Origin: Nocardiopsis terrae
GTDB taxonomy: Bacteria > Actinomycetota > Actinomycetes > Streptosporangiales > Streptosporangiaceae
Length of the DNA stretch: 64,000 nucleotides
Direction of reading: 5' to 3'
Assembly (NCBI RefSeq): GCF_014651695.1
Contig: NZ_BMXJ01000005.1
Span: 1-64,000, forward strand
Positions 58,082 through 62,045 of the stretch are shown here, one piece after another. Under the pieces are notes generated by a model. That model saw nothing but the letters and a program-made list of their open reading frames with translations, was not told the origin of the DNA and did no database searches. A program made the translations under genes and the position numbers. Numbering within the stretch: position 1 is the first letter of the stretch; each line of letters starts with the position of its first letter.

Positions 58082-58186
58082 CCGCGTTCCCGCGCCCGTC
58101 GCCCTCCGCCGGGCTCACCACCACGGGGTGGGCACCCGGGCGGGCCCGGCCCCGAGCGTGTGTGCGGCGTCCGGAACGGCCGCCGC

Positions 58187-58226
58187 GGTCGGGTCGGTGC
58201 GATCCGCGGATCGCACCGACCCGACC
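58187..58226 (-). terminator. 40-bp perfect palindrome after dop
   Basis: GGTCGGGTCGGTGCGATCCG is followed immediately by its exact reverse complement, centred on GATCCG|CGGATC. It ends 4 nt beyond the dop stop codon on the minus strand, so terminator is the simplest reading. Confidence 0.75.
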
Positions 58227-58230
58227 GGGC

Positions 58231-59754
58231 TCAGCCCCTGCGTCCTCCGGCCAGAACCGCCACCAGGTCCGCTGCGGTGGCGGAGGCGTCCAGAAGCCCG
58301 CCCACGTGCTCCTTGGTCCCCCTGCGCGGCTCCAGGGTGGGGACGCGCTGCAGGGAGTCGTAACCCGGCAGGTCGAAGATCACCGAGTCCCAGGAGGCCG
58401 CGGCCACCTCGTCGGCGTACTTGGCCAGGCAGCGCCCCCGGAAGTAGGCACGGGTGTCCTCCGGCGGTTCGGTGACGGCCCGGTTGACCTCGGAGTCCTC
58501 CACCAGGCGCCGCATCCGGCCGCGGGCGGCCAGACGGTTGTAGAGGCCCTTGTCCGCGCGCACGTCGGAGTACTGCAGGTCCACCAGGTGCAGGCGCGGG
58601 TGGGACCACTCCAGCCCGTCCCGGGACCGGTAGCCCTCCAGGAGCTTGAGCTTGGCGACCCAGTCCAGTTCGGTGGCCAGGCTCATCGGGTCGGAGGCCA
58701 ACCGCGACAGAACCGACTCCCACCGGTCGAGCACGTCCGCGGTGTCGGGGTCCACGTCGGTGCCGAACCGGTCCTCGACGTACTTGCGGGCCTGGTCCAG
58801 GTACTCGCCCTGGAGTTCCAGGGCGGTCATCCGCCGCCCGTCCCGCAACCGGACCCGGTGGGTCAGCCCCGGGTCGTGGGAGATCTCCCGCAGGTCGGCC
58901 ACCGGGGTCTCCAGGGACAGGTCCGTGCTGAGGAAACCGTCCTCGATCATCGACAGCACCAGCGCGGTGGTCCCCAGCTTGAGGTAGGTGGAGATCTCAC
59001 TCATGTTGGCGTCACCGATGATGACGTGCAGGCGCCGGTACTGGTCCGGGTCGGCGTGGGGTTCGTCCCGTGTGTTGATGATGGGACGCTTCAGGGTCGT
59101 CTCAAGGCCCACTTCCACCTCGAAGAAGTCGGCCCGCTGCGAGATCTGGAAACCGCTGCCCTGACCGTCCGCGCCGATCCCGACCTTGCCCGCGCCGCAC
59201 ACCACCTGGCGGGAGACGAAGAACGGGATCAGGTGCCGGACGATGTCCCCGAAGGGCGTCGACCGGTGCATCAGGTAGTTCTCGTGGCAGCCGTAGGAGG
59301 CGCCCTTGTTGTCGGTGTTGTTCTTGTACAGCTGGATCGGCTCTATCCCCGGGGTGGCTGCGGCCCGGGCCGCGGCATCGGCCATCACCCGCTCTCCGGC
59401 CTTGTCCCACAGGACCGCGTCGCGAGGGTTGGTGACCTCGGGGGCCGAGTACTCGGGGTGGGCGTGGTCCACGTACAGGCGCGCGCCGTTGGTGAGGATG
59501 ACGTTGGCCAGCCCCAGGTCCTCGTCGGTCAACTGGGTGGGATCGGCGACCTCGCGTGCCAGGTCGAACCCGCGGGCGTCGCGCAGCGGGTTCTCCTCCT
59601 CGAAGTCCCAGCGGGCCTTCCTGGCCCGGGCCGCCGAGGCGGCCAGGTAGGCGTTGACCACCTGGGTGGAGGTGACCATCGCGTTGGCCCCGGGGTTTCC
59701 CGGCACGGAGATCCCGTATTCGGTCTCGATACCCATAATCCGCCGCACACTCAT
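58231..59754 (-). CDS. dop: Depupylase/Pup deamidase Dop
   Basis: Dop converts the C-terminal Gln of Pup to Glu and removes Pup from substrates. The 507-residue sequence is a PafA relative: [90 protein letters not shown]. The roughly 40-residue Dop loop region ([31 protein letters not shown]) separates it from PafA. ATG 59754 chosen. Downstream of mpa on the same strand, 521 nt apart. Confidence 0.96.
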
Positions 59755-60060
59755 GGTGAGAGGTTATCCGCCAGAGACCGGTCTTGAACGCTTCCGCGCC
59801 AATTGTGGCCTAAGCGCCGTCTTCCCGGGCGTTTCAAAAGGGCTCCGGTGGCCGTGTCGATGCAGGTCGGAGCCACTTCGCTTGGATTCGCAGCAAAACC
59901 ACGACCTGTGCCGCACAAGCCCCGGCCAAACGGTTCAGTTGGACCTGCCAACGGGTATTGTCCGAAGCCCGGTAGACCAAAGGCCCCCGCTTGTCCCCGC
60001 TGAGCACGACCCCGGGGTCCATGCTCTCCACGGTCAGTTCCCGGACGCGGCCCCAACCCC

Positions 60061-60120
60061 GGTGATCTTGCTACCAGGGGCGAGTTCGGCGCCGAAGTTG
60101 CCCCTGGTAGCAAGATCACC
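60061..60120. repeat. 60-bp near-perfect palindrome between mpa and dop
   Basis: GGTGATCTTGCTACCAGGGG plus one base (60061-60081) is exactly complementary to 60100-60120. The 18-nt centre contains the further palindrome TTCGGCGCCGAA (60085-60096). The element is not at a gene end; mpa already has a separate terminator at 60184-60224. It could be a dispersed extragenic palindrome or small non-autonomous element, or a structured leader of dop. The rest of the 521-nt interval (59755-60275) shows no gene. Confidence 0.75.
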
Positions 60121-60183
60121 GCGAAGAAGGGCCCCAGAAACGCCCGGCCCGGAGACGGGCTCGTTCCTTCCCCGAAAACGACA

Positions 60184-60224
60184 CGGTGGCCGCAACCCCC
60201 GAAGTCAGGGTGTTGCGGCCACCG
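60184..60224 (-). terminator. Terminator after mpa
   Basis: CGGTGGCCGCAAC (60184-60196) and GTTGCGGCCACCG (60212-60224) are perfect 13-bp complements, about 50 nt beyond the mpa stop. Confidence 0.75.
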
Positions 60225-60275: not shown

Positions 60276-62036
60276 TTACAGGTACTGGCCGGTGTTGGCG
60301 ACGGTGTCGATGGACCGACCGGAGTCGGCGCCCTTCTTGCCGGTCACCAGGGTCCGGATGTAGACGATGCGCTCGCCCTTCTTGCCGGAGATCCGGGCCC
60401 AGTCGTCCGGGTTGGTGGTGTTGGGCAGGTCCTCGTTCTCGCTGAACTCGTCCACGCAGGCCTGCAACAGGTGCGACACCCGGAGCCCCTTGGACTGGTG
60501 CTCGATGTAGTCCTTGATCGCCATCTTCTTGGCCCGCGAGACGATGTTCTCGATCATCGCGCCGGAGTTGAAGTCCTTGAAGTACAGGACCTCCTTGTCA
60601 CCGTTGGCGTAGGTGACCTCCAGGAAGCGGTTCTCCTCACCCTCGGTGTACATCCGCTCCACGACCCGCTGGATCATGGCGTCCACCGTGGCCGAGGCCG
60701 AACCGCCGTGCTCGGCGAGGTCGTCCTCGTGCAGCGGCAGCCCATCGGTGATGTACTTGCCGAAGATGTCCCGGGCGCCCTCGGCGTCGGGCCGCTCGAC
60801 CTTGATCTTGACGTCCAGGCGGCCGGGCCGCAGGATCGCCGGGTCGATCATGTCCTCACGGTTGGAGGCGCCGATGACGATGACGTTCTCCAGCCCCTCC
60901 ACACCGTCGATCTCGCTGAGCATCTGCGGGACGATGGTGTTCTCCACGTCGGAGGACACACCCGAACCGCGGACCCGGAAGATCGAGTCCATCTCGTCGA
61001 AGAACACGATGACCGGGGTGCCCTCGGAGGCCTTCTCCCTGGCCCGCTGGAAGACCAGGCGGATGTGCCGCTCGGTCTCGCCCACGTACTTGTTCAGCAG
61101 CTCCGGGCCCTTGATGTTGAGGAAGAAGCTCTTGCCGACGTCACGTCCGGTGCGCTCGGCGACCCGCTTGGCCAGCGAGTTGGCGACGGCCTTGGCGATG
61201 AGCGTCTTACCGCACCCGGGCGGACCGTAGAGCAGCACGCCCTTGGGCGGGGTGAGCTCGTGTTCCAGGAACAGGTCCTTGTAGAGGAAGGGCAGTTCGA
61301 CCGCGTCGCGGATCATCTCGATCTGCCCCGTCAGGCCACCGATGTCGGTGTAGGAGATGTCGGGGACCTCCTCGAGGATGAGCTCCTCGACCTCGGACTT
61401 GGGGATCCTCTCGTACACGTACCCCGAACGGGGCTCCAACAGCAGCGAGTCACCCGGGCGAATGGGCTCGTCCCGCAACGGCTCCGCCAACCGGACGATC
61501 TTCTCGTCGTCGTGGTGCGAGATCACCAGTGCCCGTTCACCGTCCTCGAGGACCTCCTTGAGCAGGACGACCTCGCCGACGGTCTCGAACGACTCCACCT
61601 CGACGACGTTGAACGCCTCGTTGAGCATGACCTCCTGGCCGGGGCGCAGGTTCTCCATGTCCACGGAGGGACTGACGTTGACCCGCATCTTGCGGCCGTT
61701 GGTGAAGATCTCGACGGTCTCGTCGTCGCGGGACCCAAGGTAGACACCGAAGCCCGACGGTGGCTGTGCGAGCCGGTCGACCTCCTCCTTGAGTGCCACG
61801 ATCTGCTCGCGCGCCTCCTTGAGTGTGGAGACGAGCCGTTCGTTCTGCCCGTTCGCGGCGGCTAGGTCGGCCTGGGCCTCCCGCAACCGCTCCTCCAGCA
61901 GACGCACATGTCGGGGCGAGTCGGCGAGCTTACGCCGAACCACGCTGAGTTCCTTTTCCATGTAGGAGACCTGGGCCGTGAGTTCAGCGACTTCACGGTC
62001 CCGGTCGCTCTGACGCTCGTCTTCGCGCTCGGCCAC
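60276..62036 (-). CDS. mpa: Proteasome-associated AAA+ ATPase (Mpa/ARC)
   Basis: The hexameric unfoldase that binds Pup and feeds the proteasome. The N-terminal coiled coil (about 15-95) is followed by OB-type domains. The AAA module has [16 protein letters not shown] (Walker A), [19 protein letters not shown] (Walker B) and [11 protein letters not shown]. The C-terminus ends QYL, the conserved motif that docks into the PrcA ring. GTG 62036 is chosen because GGGAGG lies 8 nt before it; GTG 62045 would sit directly on that site. About 586 residues. Confidence 0.95.
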
Positions 62037-62045
62037 GTCCGCCAC

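Follow-up and report, generated by a model that had tools for sequence, protein, structure and literature searches.

The data presented here indicate that the near-perfect palindrome lying between two genes of the window (the whole stretch of 64,000 nucleotides of Nocardiopsis terrae DNA that was analysed) probably belongs to a mobile palindromic element of Actinomycetota, of which it would be a non-autonomous copy; the autonomous counterpart would be a unit carrying a nuclease gene and working as proposed below. The best reading of the family is that of REP-like mobile sequences whose partner is a homing-type nuclease and not a RAYT enzyme. Computation revealed the dispersal of the palindromes, their gains at known sites, their flanking of and co-occurrence with one gene, and the fold and conserved acidic residues of the product of that gene.

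Structure of the palindrome and its dispersed copies

The 60-bp near-perfect palindrome with exact 21-base arms described in an earlier note was confirmed: GGTGATCTTGCTACCAGGGGC stands at 60061-60081, its exact reverse complement (21/21) at 60100-60120, and the centre between the two arms contains TTCGGCGCCGAA. The structure, which has no assigned strand, can be extended to 62 bp (60060-60121), where two loop-free arms of 31 nt each (60060-60090 and 60091-60121) form 29 pairs and are 94% complementary. No inverted repeat listed for the window is longer than this one, whose palindrome score of 26 is far above those of 60 Markov sequences matched in dinucleotide composition (mean 10.4, maximum 13.5). 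Folded as RNA, it gives a very stable hairpin (z = -8.6), and the Rfam matches at this position are hairpin look-alikes far under the gathering scores. The 54-bp core, GATCTTGCTACC...GGTAGCAAGATC, maps to 60064-60117 and is bordered by two modules that are partly conserved beside other copies, namely the purine-rich M2 (CGAAGAAGGGCCCC; 60122-60135, plus strand), found beside many of them, and the start of M1 (60045-60059, minus strand), which reads GGGTTGGGGCCGCGT outward and is longer elsewhere. The core is also open in two reading frames (ILLPGATSAPKLPLVAR and DLATRGNFGAEVAPGSKI in the consensus core) and appears within spurious or extended ORF calls.

The palindrome sits 154 bp beyond the end of its upstream neighbour (60276-62045), in the gap before the downstream neighbour (58231-59754); both genes lie on the minus strand, and we take them, following the earlier note, to be mpa, encoding the proteasomal ATPase, and dop, respectively. 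A separate 17-nt hairpin, weakly terminator-like on the minus strand, is found about 50 bp beyond mpa (60184-60224). In addition, a perfect, loop-free 42-bp palindrome with 21-nt arms (58186-58227) adjoins the dop stop (dop ends at 58231) and is probably the dop terminator hairpin, though an unusually perfect one.

The search for further genomic copies, which the earlier note had suggested as a check, returned a large number of them. Specifically, the 18-base half-arm gave 67 + 60 matches with up to 3 mismatches in the N. terrae genome, compared to 2 + 2 for the backward control, and both exact 12-base arms, spaced by 28-46 bases, were found together at 54 places, compared to none for the control. 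A looser pattern brought the number of copies in this 6.0-Mb genome, whose assembly (G000) contains masked and fragmented stretches, to at least 57. Throughout this work totals come from such counts, while statements on single sites rest on sites among the matches listed.

From the fetched stretches we collected 52 distinct copies by means of patterns requiring near-perfect arms, all with a length of exactly 54 bp from one GATC tip to the other. The outermost 12 bases on either side are invariant in all 52, partly because the search patterns demand them, and the copies differ at a few inner positions only; the flanking modules M1 and M2 are partly shared among copies and fade outward. The inner 9-base halves pair at random (14 identical versus 13.3 expected, p = 0.47), while the six bases outward of them match more often than by chance (44 versus 37.5, p = 1e-4), and therefore it is the outer arm that is kept constant, as a sequence. 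A constant arm around a variable centre is what would be expected of a recognised site, in line with the protein-binding site that the earlier note had considered. The arms of this subtype also include GGTAG, inside the paired part.

As for gene context, a heuristic home-made ORF caller assigned 20 of the 52 copies to convergent, 19 to tandem and 1 to divergent gaps, placed 3 inside a predicted ORF and left 9 unresolved; the same caller classified the window gaps of at least 60 bp as 5 convergent, 19 tandem and 6 divergent. Several palindromes of the related genomes G006 and G014 are enclosed by a larger dispersed repeat of about 500 bp (L166 1953-2689, L170 10238-11144, L176, L177 and L182), a 150-180 bp block of which occurs, in either orientation, near some N. 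terrae copies (L003, L041, L099, L104 and L105). No Rfam family reached its gathering score in L105, L166 or L170.

When the looser pattern, GATCTTG N38-48 CAAGATC, was run over 40 genomes of the genus, its control gave no match in any of them. The palindrome design GATCTTG-N40-CAAGATC is present in 26 of the 40, with inner arms that are genome-specific, and the pattern has no copy in the remaining 14. The richest genomes hold 90, 71, 54, 52, 45, 36, 35 and 35 copies, to be compared with 57 in N. terrae. The inner arm reads GCTACCAGGGGC in N. terrae, mostly GTACTTATAGCGAGG in the listed copies of G029, and GCCACCAGRGGCAAGGAA in some copies of G008.

Apparently gained, kept and interrupted sites

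Among the 30 dop loci fetched from a search of 40 genomes, the palindrome pattern occurs between mpa and dop in N. terrae only, being absent from the other 29. In G006, a close and palindrome-rich relative, the gap accommodates a 149-aa ORF (L116:834-1283) that ends VAVLTVESMGNGIRVSGDSWGPLVY, where the window has ELTVESMDPGVVLSGDKRGPLVYRA; the window seems to retain only the 3' end of this ORF, truncated about 15 bp from the palindrome, and G014 has DNA similar to it. By comparison with these two genomes, positions 59964-60044 (minus strand) are likely the 3' remnant of the ORF that is longer in G006. Comparison of the mpa-dop gap with empty sites of distant species gave no clean boundary.

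Apparent gains were observed in a trio of genomes whose dop genes group with 100/99 support, namely G029 (71 copies), G004 (1 copy) and G003 (35 copies). Eight listed G029 sites out of the 71, lying on two contigs with known synteny, were compared; all eight map to G004, with flank blocks 87-98% identical, and seven of them to G003. None of the G004 counterparts holds an intact palindrome and one holds a decayed palindrome (L358), a site at which the pattern detected no palindrome in G003. At five sites (L359, L361, L362, L363 and L364) the palindrome is present in G029 and absent from both relatives, so that five of the seven compared sites are most simply explained by new insertions on the G029 branch. 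L359 is the weakest of these cases, since its two empty relatives differ from each other. The palindrome at L360 is common to G029 and G003 and missing in G004; at this shared old site (L360 in G029, L380 in G003) both arms were altered together, from GTAC..GTAC to GTGC..GCAC, a concerted change that hints at arm-to-arm correction.

By eye, the new DNA at gained sites comprises the palindrome and, on one side of it, about 50 bp of flank, and it seems to take the place of some 20-60 bp; at L361, L362 and L364, where the empty sites are fairly clean, no target-site duplication was evident. Other palindromes have been kept at orthologous positions between species, as in the correspondence of N. 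terrae L031 with G006 L171 and of N. terrae L051 with G014 L177. Taken with the number of copies, the apparent gains at known sites lend support to the earlier note, which had suggested mobile palindromic elements or protein-binding sites.

The centre of the palindrome is, in addition, a landing place of insertion sequences. In three genomes (G000, G006 and G014), all 13 IS right ends found by an IS-end pattern lie at a palindrome centre, and the complete transposase recovered (L339:414-1517) belongs to the IS30 family (NF033563, E 7.5e-73). The same centre is occupied by an IS701-type IS (L172 567-2462) and by a 330-bp element (L167 1412-1752), and the palindrome is thus a preferred IS target. 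The 330-bp element and the IS701-type IS have similar tips (CTCGACTTTCG and CTCGGGTTTCG). At G006 L165 (554-2238) an IS30-type end in the palindrome centre is followed by what looks by eye like an IS30-like C-terminus and, further inward, by a gene for a group II intron reverse transcriptase/maturase.

The bracketed gene and its product

In the N. terrae genome two palindromes 1.2 kb apart enclose an ORF of 350 aa (L031:2576-3628). A search for its relatives in the 40 genomes of the genus returned 30 loci, some of them fragments or distant, of which 9 carry palindromes on both sides, 4 on one side and 17 on neither. The corresponding controls gave 1 of 30 dop loci, this being the window copy itself, and 0 of 20 Y1-transposase loci. 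In both N. terrae and G006 the palindrome-gene-palindrome unit comes after an ABC-transporter gene, an arrangement not seen in the 28 other loci fetched, four of which (L318, L319, L322 and L333) end at a contig edge; compared to G035, the unit seems to have taken the place of about 60 bp that contain a hairpin. Blastn of the flanks, which may miss diverged synteny, resolved 25 gene loci into about 13 neighbourhoods. In composition the unit is parent-like, in that a complete palindrome stands at either end and the gene inside encodes a nuclease fold, and no transposase family matched it. That close palindrome pairs always enclose a gene of this family proved false, as shown by a pair 1.5 kb apart in G011 and by the N. 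terrae L105 pair, 3.1 kb apart, neither of which does so.

Members of the family are proteins of about 350 aa that combine an AbiEi-type winged helix with a Vsr/EDxHD endonuclease fold. The first half was evident from profiles, as 18 of 20 members match AbiEi_4 and PADLOC reported an AbiEi match (E 1.8e-24); DUF559 matches weakly (9 of 20 members, best E 0.025). No match was obtained in PHROGs for three family proteins, in NCBIfam for the N. terrae protein, or in a profile search of solved structures; structural relatives emerged from fold comparison only. In the predicted structure (mean pLDDT 81.5), residues 43-243 resemble the AbiEi antitoxin 6y8q (Z 10.8), and the best match of the nuclease domain, residues 244-350, is I-Bth0305I (3r3p; Z 10.1, 2.9 A over 91 residues), a structure that Foldseek alone placed at E 0.24. 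The same domain also matches Ngo0050 (3hrl, Z 9.0) and Vsr (1cw0, Z 8.9), as well as RAP-domain proteins (T. gondii mitoribosome, Z 8.7 and 8.4; FASTKD4, Z 6.8). All 20 sequences compared share E251, D284, E295, D297 and H302 without variation, H302 falling in a low-confidence stretch of the model (residues 299-303, pLDDT under 50).

By counting as positive the 19 of 40 genomes with a homologue above 300 bits, we observed at least 5 palindromes in 16 of the 19 gene-bearing genomes versus 2 of the 21 others (p = 2.8e-6, ignoring kinship). A control on the dop tree, covering 30 of the 40 genomes, left four supported independent pairs, three in the same direction, none in the opposite one and one tied (p = 0.25); the association of gene and copy number is thus not significant once kinship is allowed for, the independent pairs being too few. 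The close relatives G029, with the gene and 71 copies, and G004, gene-free with 1 copy, differ in both respects. Exceptions occur in either direction: G014 has 90 copies, yet just a 60%-identical homologue without flanking palindromes, no gene was found in G017 (13 copies) and G024 (9 copies), and the gene-bearing G005 and G007 have no copy and one copy, respectively. In G029, moreover, most listed copies are of the GTACTTATAGCGAG type and not of the GCTACCAGCGTCAC type, which is the one beside the full-length gene resident in that genome. Arm distance and protein distance are correlated over 25 loci hand-picked for a visible palindrome (rho 0.60, 0/5000) and over the 16 from Nocardiopsidaceae (rho 0.38, 3/5000), a correlation that may reflect mere linkage.

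A scan of GTDB extended the family to other genera. At its 60 loci, partly from the same genomes as the genus set, palindromes were called de novo within 350-400 bp of the gene at a score of 13 or more, and strong ones were found at 44 of 120 gene sides versus 1 of 110 distant control stretches, a contrast flattered by the mostly coding DNA of the control. Since gene ends also bear ordinary terminators, part of the 44 sides will be of another kind (for example L253, L260, L273 and L298). By locus, 32 of the 60 have a strong near palindrome, 12 of them on both sides, and 28 have none. Clear cases with other arms come from Micromonospora (TTGATCAAGARGTTTGCGTC-N18-inverse), a MAG (L289) and Cellulosimicrobium. 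The full Micromonospora pattern has 21, 18, 6, 6, 1 and 0 copies in six genomes, with 0 for the control, and 49 of the 52 places listed measure 58 bp, the other 3 measuring 59 bp; the Cellulosimicrobium half-arm, with up to 2 mismatches, gave 8+12, 6+6 and 3+4 matches in three genomes and 0 for the control. In Streptomonospora sp. PA3 (L268), a score-31 palindrome about 1600-2000 bp upstream of the gene, within the distant control stretch, is possibly another family member.

Proposed working, alternatives and known systems

In the working that we propose, the autonomous form would be the unit of about 1.26 kb, palindrome - gene - palindrome, encoding the AbiEi-type winged helix fused to the Vsr/EDxHD-like domain. 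The winged-helix half of the protein would recognise the arm of about 20 bp, two protomers would occupy the two arms of one palindrome of about 60 bp, and the nuclease domain would cut DNA at the palindrome. During repair of the break, either the palindrome alone or the complete unit would be copied to new intergenic locations, and the palindrome arms would also be kept uniform. Binding by the protein, cutting of DNA, and the driving of palindrome spread by both are what we infer from the evidence above. Dimeric recognition in particular is suggested by analogy: a review (PMC3943268) describes I-Bth0305I as a dimer on its target, which is nearly 60 bp long, and the likeness of this target to a 60-bp palindrome with two inverted arms of about 20 bp is our main reason for proposing it. 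A bolder generalisation, plausible although we stop short of favouring it, would see here a new class of selfish elements across Actinomycetota, in which an EDxHD homing-type nuclease with an AbiEi domain, acting as a dimer on palindromes of about 60 bp, would spread its bracketed gene and hundreds of gene-less palindromes ectopically by break repair, without a transposase or recombinase, the arm code evolving with the protein in each lineage.

Conserved outer arms around variable, randomly paired inner halves, the persistence of palindromes at orthologous positions (L031 with G006 L171; L051 with G014 L177) and their rarity in divergent, promoter-bearing gaps (1/52) would also suit fixed or slow-moving binding sites that act as operators or organise the chromosome, recognised by the AbiEi-Vsr protein or by another host protein, with the nuclease domain serving regulation or defence and the sites being moved by other processes. 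We consider this unlikely, as 5 of 7 compared sites look recently gained, no palindrome was seen in 14 of 40 genomes of the genus, and the gene is often bracketed on both sides, which an operator does not need. A role of the palindrome as a transcription terminator, intrinsic or bidirectional, the mpa terminator being the alternative raised in the earlier note, is scarcely credible, even if its hairpin is very stable and 20 of the 52 copies lie between convergent genes. An intrinsic terminator is a hairpin followed by a T-run; the terminator scan found no terminator-like site at the palindrome, and on this ground the identification was rejected; moreover, the sequence recurs at dozens of places and is conserved beyond pairing alone, the inner halves matching no better than chance, and mpa is followed by a separate hairpin at 60184-60224.

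The 13 of 13 IS right ends at palindrome centres in three genomes, together with the IS30-family transposase, could also mean that the palindromes are MITE-like and moved by an IS transposase, most likely that of the IS30-family element in their centres. This is improbable, as the IS30 element interrupts the palindrome and does not bound it, no terminal repeat common to the IS ends and the palindrome arms was evident by eye, no clean target duplication is evident at the new sites, and the sharing of the centre with an IS701-type IS and a small element is expected of a target and not of a product; the IS30 element was rejected as the mover since it sits inside the palindrome centre. More improbable still are classical REP sequences mobilised in trans by a RAYT/TnpA_REP (HUH) enzyme. 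The predominance of convergent and tandem gaps recalls REPs, as described in PMC3733652, GGTAG is found in the arms of the N. terrae subtype, and 13 of the 40 genomes of the genus, G006 and G014 included, do have Y1 genes. Here, however, GTAG is part of the paired arm, the arms of Micromonospora and Cellulosimicrobium lack it, and the palindromes are 54-62 bp long. Y1_Tnp (PF01797) had 0 matches in the N. terrae genome, a few small contigs of which are masked, despite its approximately 57 copies, and none in 27 of the 40 genomes of the genus; with no such gene found in N. terrae, RAYT is largely refuted as the mover there.

The family of REP-like palindromes with a homing-type nuclease as partner, which we favour, would offer a second, unrelated enzyme class associated with dispersed palindromes, and thus an independent system with a 60-bp substrate, a candidate enzyme and many subtype pairs that occur naturally. 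If the nuclease drives the spread, this would demonstrate the ectopic dispersal of short palindromes by endonucleases of the homing type, and a meaning would be given to a protein type, AbiEi domain plus Vsr-like nuclease, that is function-less in profile searches. The palindrome also explains the location of IS30-type insertions in these genomes. The partner gene family and its wider distribution were beyond the reach of the single-sequence view of the earlier note. A literature search, which left most subscription journals uncovered, returned no published account of palindromes paired with an AbiEi/Vsr-type gene, and actinobacterial terms, sought in PMC2817692, PMC3733652 and PMC12306157, turned up only in a table of the last. 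On the sequence evidence, what would be new here is the association of REP-like palindromes with a different class of enzyme, while a REPtron-type arrangement and IS targeting of REPs are already known.

Compared to known systems, the N-terminal part of the partner protein, about 200 residues, is shared with AbiEi (6y8q) of the AbiE type IV toxin-antitoxin; differently from the antitoxin, the partner protein has a nuclease-like domain of its own, and no AbiEii toxin was recognised by eye beside the gene among the ORFs of L031. IS elements likewise have a dispersed palindrome as target in REPs, according to PMC1525189, in which IS1655, of the IS30 family, is weakly associated with REPs (2/13, 2/6), whereas here 13 of 13 IS30-type ends lie at the palindrome centre.

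With the REP/REPIN and RAYT 'REPtron', as presented in PMC8266576 and PMC3733652, the present family shares short, dispersed, extragenic and seemingly non-autonomous palindromes (54 exact-arm copies, 39 of 52 in convergent or tandem gaps, in keeping with the REPtron preference for such gaps) with a dedicated DNA-processing enzyme, and the insertion of IS elements into the palindromes. It differs in that the enzyme is an AbiEi winged helix plus Vsr/EDxHD-like nuclease and not an HUH Y1 protein, the palindrome is 54-62 bp long (20-40 bp in REPtrons) without an unpaired GTAG or CGTC foot, the gene often lies between two complete palindromes, and the host is an actinomycete lineage (Actinomycetota). 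PMC8266576 calls the mechanism of REP palindrome dissemination unresolved even with a candidate enzyme. Finally, the EDxHD homing endonuclease I-Bth0305I (3r3p; PMC3943268) shares with the partner protein the catalytic fold, with conserved acidic and His residues in the predicted structure (residues 299-303 at low confidence), a separate DNA-binding region and a target near 60 bp; in the family described here, the DNA-binding part is AbiEi-like, the gene is not located in an intron, and dispersed ectopic palindromes take the place of one allelic site.
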